NCBI GenBank assembly: GCA_030690415.1
Contig: JAUYGZ010000011.1
Coordinates: 70,269-134,268, forward strand
Direction of reading: 5' to 3'
DNA length: 64,000 nt
DNA from: a bacterium
Lineage (GTDB): Bacteria; Patescibacteriota; Gracilibacteria; JAUYGZ01
In this document: positions 55,205-59,349 of the stretch, one piece after another
Layout: each line of letters begins with the position of its first letter
Numbering within the stretch: position 1 is the stretch's first letter
The notes under the pieces: generated by a model
The model's input: only the letters and a program-made list of their open reading frames with translations
The model's database searches: none
What the model was told of the DNA's origin: nothing
Made by a program: the position numbers and the translations under genes

Positions 55205-57589
55205 TCAAGAAAAAGCTCCGCCTCCTGGTAAGTACTGTGGATCTCTGATCCCTTTGATCTGGCGAACGAGATCCACCTGACTGAGAGCAAACTTTCCGAG
55301 GAAGAGATCTTTCCACTCTCCACCTCCTCTGATGTAATCCCCAACTTCGAGATAGCCCCAGTAGTACAAAGCGTTTTTGGGGAAGGCCCCGGGCTGGCCG
55401 GCATCGAGCAACCCTCTCTTCACCTTCACGGCGCCCTTCCAGGCTTCATCAGGGGTTTGATAGGTGCAGAGTCGATCAAAGACCGCTCGAAAACCCTCTT
55501 CTCTCGCCCACTGGGCTGCGTGGAAGCTGAGCAGAGCGCCTCGGTATCCCTCTGAGACGACCCTGCTTTGATGAAAGACGGCTAGACCCTCCTGGGTTTT
55601 GAGGTAGTGGGCAGTCCCTCGTCGAAAGACCTGAAATGGCTGTATTTTACCATTTTCTGTACAGTACACATGGACCTCGATCTCATGAGCAATGAGCTTT
55701 TTGACGTCTTCCTCAGAAAACATTTCATCGGCTTTGACGAGGAGACGGTTTTTCTTTCCGACGACGCATCGGGACACAATCCCCTCTTTCGTCTTCACCT
55801 GCCAGTTGTGCAGCCCCTTCTCTTTCAAAAAGCTCTGCATCAGTGTGACCACCGCGTCCGAAGGGAGAGTGCGGTCTTCATGAGCTTCGGATCTTTTCAA
55901 TCCTTTCAGGGCTTTTTCAGCCTGAGCCAGGATATGGCTGGGGGGAAGTCCCATGAGGAGTTCAGCCTGTCGGGGGAAATGATCATCATCCCCAATAACC
56001 GCAATAAGATCGGCCTTTTGCAGGAGCTCGCGGCGTTTCTCGTCAAAAAGACGACCGATGGGCTTGTTCAGATCTATCCTGAGGGCCTGGAGCTCGGATC
56101 TGATTTGAATAAGGTTTTCGGGAAGCGGTTTATAAACAAACCGGGGCTCATAGTGCTCCTCTTCGAAAAAGCGCTTTTTTTCTTCTGCCAAGTTCAGAGG
56201 GCGGAGCTGACTTACCAGACTGAGCTGACGGTCAAAGTTGGCGAGTCGATTATCATTTTGGTGCCAATACGATTCATCCGATTCAGTATGGAGTCTGAGA
56301 GATCTGGCTTTTCCAGATGAAGAGTCTTCCTTCGGTATCAGCTTATTTTCAGTCCCTCGAGTCACATCCAGAAAAAAATTCGAAAGGACTTTCTTTCCCA
56401 GGATGACCTGGTGCGTTTCATCCGCCATTTCCAGAGGATAAAAAACCGTTTTACCCCGATCCCCCTGGAGGGTGTATCCCAGGGTCAGCTTCTCAGCATT
56501 TTTCTTATGAGCAATCTTTTGAAACAGCTTTTCCTCCAGATAATTCTTGTTCATCGTGGGATTCATTCGGGCTTTCCCGGTGGTGGTCCCATGCTTTAGA
56601 TTCAGCGTGATTTCCTCAGACATCCCGATCACCTTCTTTCCACTCAGAGCCTGGATACCCCTCTCGATCTTATTTCCAAATAAATCTTGAGCCAATCGTA
56701 CACCTTTCTCGGGGGTTTGTACCTTCACTCCCGCCACGCGATCGAGCCGATCTCGTAAAGGAGCCAGATTCGCGATCTGCACCGCCAGGCCGGCACGGGC
56801 ATTGATCTCCAGAAGGGCTGGGCCCATATCTTCATCGATCACGACATCCACGGCGAGGTAGCCGAGGGTGACGAGCTGCTGGATTTGAGTCGCCAAAAGG
56901 AGAATTTCTTCCCAAAACGGAATCTTAGTCCCTTTCAAATTTCCAAAATCAGGATGTTCTTTGATGATTCGGCCATAGTGAGCCATATGGGTGATCTCGC
57001 CCTTTGACAGGTCAACCCCAAGGCCAAGCCCTCCCATATGGATATTTGCTTTTCCATGGCTTTCAGAAGTCGGGACTCTCACCATGGCCATGACCGGGAC
57101 CATGTTGTAGACGATGACCCGAATATCAGGGAGACCAAAGGTTCCGAGTGTTTTCATTTCCGGATGACAAATCAAGCGTTGTTCGAAGAATACGGTGTCA
57201 GGACTTCCTGTGATAGAGTAACGGCCTTCCAGGGTATCCGTCACATGCTCTATCATTTCCTCCTGGGAAAAAAAATCACCTTTCGCCGTAATCCAACCAT
57301 CATGCTCACGATTGGTAATCACCACAATCCCCTCTCCTCCGAAGCCTGCATTCGGTTTCAGCACAAAGTCATTCGGCAGAGAGTCCCAAGGGAATTTCTG
57401 CAATTCCGCTTCGGAAGTGATTTTCCCTAACAATCGAGCGGAGCTGACTCCCCTTGCGGCGAGGTACTGCTTCGTCCGCATCTTGTCATCCGCAAACTGA
57501 ATCTGAGCCTTTTTATTCAAAGGCTTGATATAGAGCAGATTACGGGCGTTGATGCCCAGTATCCCATGGTGGTTCCAAAATTTCAGCAT
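55205..57589 (-). CDS. Fusion: ATP-grasp glutamate-ligase-like, retropepsin-like and DUF1704 (QEGLA) zincin
   Basis: A 794-residue fusion of three units that other bacteria usually encode as separate neighbouring genes. Residues about 1-300: alpha-L-glutamate-ligase-like ATP-grasp (NDFVLKPNAGFGGEGIVVI, LPDIRVIVYN, ALLEINARAGLAVQIAN). About 310-420: a retropepsin-like segment (KVIGMSEEITLNLKHG ... VILGKKVLSNFFLDVT) in which the catalytic DTGA cannot be found. About 445-790: DUF1704/MATCAP-type zincin with HEIEVH (His635, Glu636, His640) and TQEGLAVFH (666-670 QEGLA). It could add and remove amino-acid tags on a peptide or protein. It starts 3 bp after the membrane-anchored DNA-binding protein gene, so the genes are coupled. 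Confidence 0.85.
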   Translation of the reverse strand: MLKFWNHHGILGINARNLLYIKPLNKKAQIQFADDKMRTKQYLAARGVSSARLLGKITSEAELQKFPWDSLPNDFVLKPNAGFGGEGIVVITNREHDGWITAKGDFFSQEEMIEHVTDTLEGRYSITGSPDTVFFEQRLICHPEMKTLGTFGLPDIRVIVYNMVPVMAMVRVPTSESHGKANIHMGGLGLGVDLSKGEITHMAHYGRIIKEHPDFGNLKGTKIPFWEEILLLATQIQQLVTLGYLAVDVVIDEDMGPALLEINARAGLAVQIANLAPLRDRLDRVAGVKVQTPEKGVRLAQDLFGNKIERGIQALSGKKVIGMSEEITLNLKHGTTTGKARMNPTMNKNYLEEKLFQKIAHKKNAEKLTLGYTLQGDRGKTVFYPLEMADETHQVILGKKVLSNFFLDVTRGTENKLIPKEDSSSGKARSLRLHTESDESYWHQNDNRLANFDRQLSLVSQLRPLNLAEEKKRFFEEEHYEPRFVYKPLPENLIQIRSELQALRIDLNKPIGRLFDEKRRELLQKADLIAVIGDDDHFPRQAELLMGLPPSHILAQAEKALKGLKRSEAHEDRTLPSDAVVTLMQSFLKEKGLHNWQVKTKEGIVSRCVVGKKNRLLVKADEMFSEEDVKKLIAHEIEVHVYCTENGKIQPFQVFRRGTAHYLKTQEGLAVFHQSRVVSEGYRGALLSFHAAQWAREEGFRAVFDRLCTYQTPDEAWKGAVKVKRGLLDAGQPGAFPKNALYYWGYLEVGDYIRGGGEWKDLFLGKFALSQVDLVRQIKGIRDPQYLPGGGAFS

Positions 57590-57592
57590 GGA

Positions 57593-58258
57593 CTAGGCAA
57601 AAAGTCTCAAAATCATCAGTAAAGGCAACAAGCCCATCATCACAAACAAAAACACAGCGTAAAGTTTTTTCACAAACTGTTCCATCCGAACCTGTTTTTC
57701 GAGCTGAGCAATGTCATCCTGCTTCAATCGGTTTTCCTCCGAAAGCTGGAGGAGCTCCTGTTTTTGCTTTTTGAATGCTATCAAAGGAACCATAGACTTC
57801 ACCTGAGCTTCGAGCTTTCCGACCTGGTAATTGGCCATTTCCAGTTTTTGACGCGCTTCTTTCAGCTCCCCTTCCCCCTTCTCGTAGAGCCCTTTGTAGA
57901 TGGCGACTTCCGGATCTCGTTTAAGGAGTGAGTTTCGAATACCGGCAAATTCGGCATCGTCGCCATCTCCATCCTGCTCCATCACCTGAGCTTCATGAAT
58001 ATCGTGAAACTCACGATGAGAAGACCTGGGCCGGATTTCCTCCCGTAGTTCTCGTTTTGCCTTCACCTGCTCAAGTTGTTGCTCGGCCAGGAGCTGAGCT
58101 TTGAAGTTGAGAAGTTCTTCTTCAGAAAAATAGAGCTGTCGACCTCGGCGTACAGAAGAGATAGTATCTTTCTTCGCATAGCGATCCAGGGTTCGGAGCG
58201 AGACATTCAAAATCTCTGCCGCAAAGGGTCGTGAAACGGTGTGCTGGTCAGTGCTCAT
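57593..58258 (-). CDS. MerR-type DNA-binding protein with coiled coil and C-terminal membrane anchor
   Basis: A 221-residue protein. N-terminal helix-turn-helix of the MerR/excisionase type (about 6-52: SRPFAAEILNVSLRTLDRY ... RRGRQLYFSEEELLNF). Charged middle part and coiled coil (about 125-195, LEMANYQVGKLEAQVKSM, KQKQELLQLSEENRLKQDDI). One C-terminal transmembrane segment (about 202-221, LYAVFLFVMMGLLPLLMILRLF). The protein should sit at the inner membrane and reach DNA with its N-terminus. First gene of the operon with the two ATP-grasp proteins. The 22-bp-phased palindrome array upstream is the obvious candidate binding site. No close named family is recognised. Confidence 0.8.
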   Translation of the reverse strand: MSTDQHTVSRPFAAEILNVSLRTLDRYAKKDTISSVRRGRQLYFSEEELLNFKAQLLAEQQLEQVKAKRELREEIRPRSSHREFHDIHEAQVMEQDGDGDDAEFAGIRNSLLKRDPEVAIYKGLYEKGEGELKEARQKLEMANYQVGKLEAQVKSMVPLIAFKKQKQELLQLSEENRLKQDDIAQLEKQVRMEQFVKKLYAVFLFVMMGLLPLLMILRLFA

Positions 58259-58446
58259 ACTCCTTCACTTTAGGAATAACATAATGTGTTTGAGGATACC
58301 TCAGGAATAATCAATAGAGCTTCGTAGTATTTGAAGATCAAGGTGATAGAGATCGTGCATATCGTATTAAGAAATCGTGTCATAGAAAGGTACGATGACT
58401 TCCCTATTATACTCACAGCTTACGCACTGACAACGCAAAGTAGACA

Positions 58447-58744
58447 TGTCGAGTCGACAGTTGGCACTGTCCAGTCGACACATAATATCTGGCGAGTCGA
58501 CATGACAGCCGTGGCGAGTCGCCAGGGTGGGGGAGTATCTCAAGGGTCTCTGAGATTTTATGTAGACAACATGACAGTGGCGACTAGACATGTAGACAGT
58601 GACGACTGGACACGCTAAAGATGGCGAGTCGACAGTGGAGTACTGTCTACATGAAATGGCTTATATGAATGAATGAGAATGTCGACATGGCGAGTCGACA
58701 TGGAGATAGTGTCGAGTAGACACGCTAAGGATGTCGAGTCGACA
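58447..58744. repeat. Array of ten 13-bp palindromes on a 22-bp lattice
   Basis: Sites with consensus TGTCGAGTCGACA start at 58447, 58468, 58490, 58512, 58578, 58600, 58622, 58688, 58710 and 58732. The first and last are perfect; the others differ at one to three positions. The site at 58512 (TGGCGAGTCGCCA) has changed symmetrically in both arms. From 58468 on, all starts are multiples of 22 bp apart; a half-site TGTCTACA lies on the lattice at 58644. Extra TGTAGACA (58561, 58591) and TGTCGACA (58680) occur. The 22-bp step is two DNA turns, so all sites face the same side. No coding frame is seen. Confidence 0.93.
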
Positions 58745-58749
58745 GGGAA

Positions 58750-58824
58750 GCCCCGAGGTCACTCGGGTCTCCGACCCGCCTGAGCGGACGGGCAGGTAAG
58801 GGGCCAGGGGACTCAGGGCCCTGG
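58750..58824. repeat. GC-rich hairpin cluster between array and ssb
   Basis: Several short inverted repeats in a row: CCGAG-GTCA-CTCGG, GGGTC-TCC-GACCC, and CCAGGG...CCCTGG. The block is much richer in G+C than its surroundings. It may end the ssb transcript or be a mobile palindromic element. Confidence 0.6.
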
Positions 58825-58893: not shown

Positions 58894-59349
58894 CTAAAAC
58901 GGCAAATCCTCCACAGCAATTTTCTCCTCAGGCATTGAGGACATGTTTGGGGAATAATCTGATGATTCGTTCTGGTTGATGCCTCCAGAGAAGCCCTGGT
59001 CTCCCCCAACACCTCCCTTGGGAGTCAGGATGATCATGTTTTCAGCGACGATCTCGGTACGGTATTGCTTTACGCCCTGATCATTGTCCCAGCTGCGGGT
59101 CTGTAGTCGTCCTTCAAAGTAGGTTTTCGTGCCCTTTTTCAGATACTGTCCGGCGATTTCAGCAAGTCGGCCCCAACAGACGATATTGTGAAACTCGACA
59201 GCCTCCTGTTTTTGATTGGTATTTTTATCGTTCCAAACTCGATTTGTCGCGACACCAACGGTGCAGACCATCTGACCACTGGGGATCTGTCGTACTTCCG
59301 GGTCGCGAGTCAGATTTCCAATAATTTGTACCTTGTTGAGGCTGTACAT
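58894..59349 (-). CDS. ssb: Single-stranded DNA-binding protein
   Basis: A 151-residue protein with a complete OB fold (LNKVQIIGNLTRDPEVR, VEFHNIVCWGRLAEIAGQYLKKG, YFEGRLQTRSW), a short Gly-rich linker and the conserved acidic tip ending VEDLPF, which binds partner proteins in replication and repair. It is not next to rpsF/rpsR as in many bacteria. The leader consists of 7-bp repeats, and the DNA downstream is the palindrome array. Confidence 0.97.
   Translation of the reverse strand: MYSLNKVQIIGNLTRDPEVRQIPSGQMVCTVGVATNRVWNDKNTNQKQEAVEFHNIVCWGRLAEIAGQYLKKGTKTYFEGRLQTRSWDNDQGVKQYRTEIVAENMIILTPKGGVGGDQGFSGGINQNESSDYSPNMSSMPEEKIAVEDLPF

Follow-up and report, generated by a model that had tools for sequence, protein, structure and literature searches.

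A tail-anchored MerR-type protein and its phased palindrome array: a strong candidate for the chromosome anchor or centromere of a class of Patescibacteriota

A 221-aa protein with a MerR-type winged helix, a coiled coil and a membrane tail, and a cluster of short palindromic sites, recur together across a bacterial class. That the two are partners, as the first-pass annotation had supposed, is strongly supported by this co-recurrence and by a family in which the single cluster lies ~20 kb from the gene. Because these ultra-small bacteria mostly lack the usual segregation proteins, protein and sites together make a strong candidate for the chromosome anchor or centromere of the class.

The array and the protein encoded beside it

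The window is the whole stretch of 64,000 nucleotides analysed, from a genome of 1.45 Mb in 30 contigs (G000); its relevant features are collected in Table 1. The array lies between ssb and the gene of the 221-aa protein, with its nearer end ~190 bp upstream of the gene. The first-pass annotation counted ten 13-bp palindromes in an exact 22-bp register. The register holds for ten sites across 58468–58732. Nine of them are unambiguous 13-bp palindromes scoring at least 8 of the 10 core positions of TGTCNANTNGACA (58468, 58490, 58512, 58578, 58600, 58622, 58688, 58710 and 58732), but the tenth, at slot 58644 (TGTCTACATGAAA), is a half-site rather than a palindrome. Slots 58534, 58556 and 58666 are vacant or degenerate. 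A perfect palindrome at 58447, an eleventh site that had been overlooked, sits 21 bp ahead of 58468 and so 1 bp off register; together with the nine it completes the list of full sites. The symmetric change described earlier in both arms of site 58512 is present (TGGCGAGTCGCCA). Near-palindromic 13-mers (at least 5 of 6 pairs) number 10 in the region 58437–58756, against 1.6 ± 1.3 (maximum 6) in 500 dinucleotide-preserving shuffles. The 22-bp-phased array is confirmed as genuine.

Table 1 Features of the window that are discussed in the text
Feature	Position	Strand	Remarks
Gene of the 221-aa tail-anchored MerR-type winged-HTH/coiled-coil protein (P0001)	57593..58258	-	
C-terminal transmembrane tail, residues 199–217	57608..57664	-	Hydrophobic tail in 19/19 aligned members
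Long coiled-coil helix, ~residues 116–197	57668..57913	-	Class-wide motif EAANYRVGQLE; alignment consensus; helix 116–220
Winged HTH domain, residues 13–54	58097..58222	-	HTH_17 E = 6.6e-8; alignment of 19 relatives; nearest folds
Array, 13-bp palindromes in 22-bp register	58447..58744	.	Full sites listed in the text
Half-site TGTCTA and non-palindromic element ATGAAATGGCTTATA	58644..58677	.	Common to G002, in inverted orientation
ssb	58894..59349	-	Far side of the array from the 221-aa gene; upstream neighbour in 3/3 f1 genomes

The genome-wide count of the 13-mer, proposed with the original annotation as a check, gave a single cluster: allowing one mismatch or none to TGTCGAGTCGACA, every place in G000 falls in the array except one stray at C27:44407. 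A dispersed regulon, which we also considered, is rejected for this genome, which has no scattered sites. Two further genomes were sampled. In G158, 22 half-sites lie at the gene and every separate 750-bp window in 313 kb holds 6 or fewer; in G103, the gene has 20, and none of the 19 remaining 20-kb stretches (400 kb sampled) exceeds 6 per 600 bp. The sites are thus clustered at one chromosomal place genome-wide in G000 and within the sampled regions of G103 and G158, where binding by the cognate protein is predicted.

All three parts of the protein named by the first-pass annotation, a MerR-type HTH, a coiled coil and a C-terminal membrane helix, are borne out. HTH_17 is the sole Pfam family found at E ≤ 0.001 and occurs in 19 of 19 aligned members, with Pfam MerR in 14 of 19 (E up to 1). 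The AlphaFold model (19 relatives) consists of a winged helix (strand–helix–helix–hairpin), a disordered linker and a long helix over residues 116–220. Residues L17, S20, R22 and R26 of the winged HTH are invariant across the 19 relatives, and conservation is highest in the recognition-helix region (S-x-R-T-x-D-R-Y) and in the coiled-coil motif. The hydrophobic stretch 199–217 has a Kyte–Doolittle mean of 2.59 and its last residue is 4 from the C-terminus; all 19 members carry a strongly hydrophobic stretch 7 or fewer residues from their C-termini. In a fold search with the winged-helix domain, BldC, RacA–DNA and, lower down, pSK1 Par–centromere were returned, none with an E below 0.001, which is unsurprising for a 70-residue domain. 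The matches to BldC, RacA and SoxR had probabilities of 0.99–1.00 with E above 0.001, and ordinary MerR regulators were also matched. The full-length search, dominated by the HTH and helices, gave the same answer. The top profile match in the PDB was RacA (E = 0.027, below significance). The protein belongs to the MerR-type winged-helix proteins.

On the other side of this gene, a single protein encoded at 55205–57589 (minus strand) joins two domains, one a glutamate-ligase-like ATP-grasp and the other MATCAP/QEGLA peptidase-like. It adjoins a RimK-like gene, which was not found beside it in G002.

Recurrence of sites and gene across the class

By profile search, relatives of the 221-aa protein are present in 219 of the 290 genomes of the class, and at E ≤ 1e-10 the matches among 287 genomes of the phylum are confined to this class. 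Families f6, f7 and f14 gave no clear relative in the same search. TGA is a sense codon in some families of the class, which points to Gracilibacteria as defined by GTDB.

Within the window's own family (f1), the order ssb–intergenic region–HTH gene is kept in all three genomes (G000, G001 and G002). The intergenic region of G002 contains seven perfect palindromes; that of G001 contains degenerate sites and half-sites, with a second small cluster ~9 kb downstream. Stretches resembling the ATGAAATGGCTTATA element (TAAGCCAT) are also present in G001. The adjacency of ssb to the array noted in the original annotation stands for the window, but the linkage is local to f1: in most other families ssb is not adjacent to the HTH gene and the neighbours differ across the rest of the class; the ssb neighbourhood is probably incidental. 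A constant neighbour gene as partner was looked for and rejected; some neighbours recur in some families, among them a GMP-synthase-like and a YbeY-like gene (as read from sequence), and none recurs in all.

The half-site TNGACA was fixed from f1 before it was used elsewhere. Outside f1 it is 7.9 times denser within −400 to +350 of the gene start, an interval picked after some loci had been viewed, than over the remainder of the loci. Nineteen GTDB families (17 if f1 and f8 are set aside) include one or more loci where the gene window outranks every other window. A de novo count of hexamers in 30 non-f1 loci, with f8, f11, f16 and f22 left out as exceptions known when the loci were picked, put TAGACA at the top of the list in two places: upstream of the gene (97 observed, 3.1 expected) and over the initial 350 bp of coding sequence (53 observed, 3.1 expected). 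The spacing between sites on the same strand has its main maximum at 11 bp and a further one at 22 bp, the period of the window array. Upstream of 8867 in locus L100 (family f12), five direct copies of GACA follow one another at 10-bp intervals, and the units of this variant array thus run head to tail.

The first-pass annotation had held that absence of the array beside orthologues of the gene would count against a partnership. The array is present in most families, but in f11, f16 and f22 the protein is found with no TNGACA cluster at its gene. These three families favour the reading that some other factor, such as a nucleoid-associated protein or a recombinase, binds the array and that its closeness to the gene is incidental. 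That reading has to contend with the coupling of motif to gene in many families despite different gene neighbourhoods, and with an HTH_17 domain in every aligned member; we regard it as the least probable of those considered here. The partnership of protein and array is, from the pattern of co-occurrence, strongly supported.

Members of the class mostly lack the usual segregation machinery in our searches. ParB_N has no match in the three f1 genomes, and ParABS is rejected for f1; it scores above cut-off in 44 of the 290 class genomes, many of these being partial matches in long frames. ParB is uncommon throughout the class, and no inverse relation was found between its presence and that of the 221-aa relatives. 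SMC_prok_B is above cut-off in 0 of 16 class genomes as against 10 of 14 controls, a comparison in which a diverged SMC could score below cut-off.

Moved and inverted sites, and the replication origin

In most families the sites occupy the 5' end of the gene itself, within −400 to +350 of its start, which is where an operator would sit. A membrane-bound transcription factor might repress or sense by way of sites in its own promoter and at the beginning of its coding region, the array being a large operator, and MerR-like BldC does regulate promoters by means of direct repeats in phase with the helix (PMC5859096). The number of half-sites, up to 22, is however far beyond what such autoregulation needs, and two families depart from the arrangement.

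The first is f8, where two of three gene starts have 0–1 half-sites (the third, in L107, has four). Here the 13-bp palindromes are clustered about 18–22 kb from the gene, at C12:126.8–130.1 kb in G030 (gene at 148.9 kb) and at C9:60.5–63.2 kb in G009 (gene at 42 kb). The cluster extends over NlpC/P60-like, MurD-like and PLP-enzyme-like genes, named from sequence and identical in order in both genera, and the sites persist inside these unrelated coding sequences over several kb, many of them in protein loops of variable length, for example VDTSRQNNLSSGQPNLSSGHRVDKK (row L129 was left out of the PLP-enzyme-like alignment). The second is f1 itself. Between the window and G002, which represent two genera, the array core aligns better inverted (107) than direct (89), with a shuffle maximum of 39, and the inverted match takes in a non-palindromic element around TATAAGCCA.

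The relocation in f8 and the inversion in f1 are compatible with a cis-acting DNA element that tolerates being moved and turned. A cluster placed in the variable loops of other genes, and a core that has been inverted, argue for a pairing of protein and sites at the level of DNA and not for a simple operator; the distance of the window array from its gene also tells against the latter. Autoregulation as the whole explanation is therefore unlikely in our estimation, but as a side function it is likely.

The array might instead be an element of the replication origin, with iteron-like sites for a membrane-anchored initiator or regulator beside ssb. Helically phased repeats do look like iterons and ssb does adjoin the array in f1, but ssb is not adjacent in most other families, dnaA lies 550 kb from the array in G001, and in none of G000, G001 and G158 does GC skew switch sharply at the array. 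Because of this lack of a skew switch, the origin linkage suggested in the first-pass annotation is unsupported rather than excluded, and the origin element is a very improbable reading. The missing switch also counts against a centromere, since those that are known mostly lie close to the origin.

Skew is strongly one-signed in parts of these genomes. In G000 (C18:1–55000) and G001 (C3:780001–1020000) it is mostly 0.13–0.25 in absolute value, and these tracts begin ~70 kb downstream of the HTH gene in each. In the complete 998-kb genome G103 (C1, L169–L188) it ranges from −0.24 to −0.39 in 20 of 20 sampled stretches, with no switch of sign, so that skew cannot place the origin of G103. One-signed skew of this kind has been reported for Microgenomates, and ordinary curves with two extremes for Gracilibacteria and Peregrinibacteria (PMC7143001).

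A proposed tether and its relation to known systems

The centromere or tether is thus the best of the readings originally offered; the origin is unsupported and a pure operator disfavoured. From evidence that is comparative throughout we infer direct binding, tethering and a role in segregation, as follows. The MerR-type winged helix would bind TNGACA half-sites, two of which, facing each other, would form one 13-bp palindrome. With repeats spaced by one or two turns of the helix, bound copies would share a face of the DNA; the coiled coil would multimerise the protein, and the C-terminal tail would keep it in the membrane. Taken together, half-site binding, phasing, multimerisation and the membrane tail would make the array a centromere-like anchorage at which a single chromosomal locus is secured to the membrane, and which assists chromosome positioning or segregation much as RacA, RocS and pSK1 Par do. 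Weighing against this reading are the families that lack a TNGACA cluster at the gene (f11, f16 and f22) or a clear relative (f6, f7 and f14), the operator-like placement of most clusters, and the fold matches, which are individually below significance and extend to ordinary MerR regulators. On balance we consider the tether probable. The wider proposal, that a class from which ParB and SMC have for the most part disappeared relies on this pair as its main anchoring and segregation system, is one that we advance more tentatively, giving it somewhat less than an even chance. The pair would then be a centromere served by a single protein and held directly in the membrane, with sites able to move elsewhere and to extend into coding sequence.

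To our knowledge, how the smallest bacteria segregate their chromosomes without ParABS and SMC is an unanswered question. Text searches of the literature on segregation in CPR/Patescibacteria and on HTH membrane proteins in Peregrinibacteria returned nothing on such a system. The present analysis yields three things that can each be put to experiment, namely a protein, its putative DNA motif and the place of the array, and f8 offers a candidate case in which selection at the level of DNA has visibly marked protein loops.

By anatomy the window protein resembles RocS, RacA and pSK1 Par, which share a plan of MerR-type winged HTH and multimerising coiled coil and have roles in DNA positioning; a C-terminal membrane anchor is found in RocS and possibly in Par, and the authors of the RocS study propose that DNA is tethered to the membrane (PMC11500499). 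We do not claim membership of these families. DUF536 is absent from the families matched by P0001 and from the 25 most-matched families of 19 members (E up to 1), so that membership of the RocS/Par DUF536 family, for which Pfam gives no support, is rejected.

Each of the known systems is alike in some respects and unlike in others. The BldC family has the best-matching domain, a MerR-like winged HTH, and sites one helical turn apart, but BldC is a transcription regulator without coiled coil or membrane tail and binds AT-rich direct repeats (PMC5859096). The single-protein plasmid partition factor pSK1 Par (PDB 8csh), which is among the fold matches, has the MerR-type winged HTH and coiled coil and binds centromere DNA, but is plasmid-borne and carries DUF536, whereas the window system is chromosomal and class-wide. 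RocS of Streptococcus pneumoniae has all three of MerR-type winged HTH, coiled coil and C-terminal membrane anchor, and acts in segregation where ParA is missing (PMC11500499), a role that we would assign here by analogy; it differs in having DUF536 and an amphipathic helix in place of the transmembrane-type hydrophobic tail. RacA, the chromosome-anchoring protein of Bacillus subtilis, is like the window protein in its MerR-type winged HTH, its central coiled coil and its repeated centromere-like chromosomal sites, and is also among the top fold matches; unlike RacA, the window protein has a hydrophobic membrane tail, a compact and helically phased array, the motif TNGACA and a place in another lineage. 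If our reading is correct, the design of RacA, RocS and Par would extend to a distant lineage, in which it is combined with a tail in the membrane and an array in helical phase.
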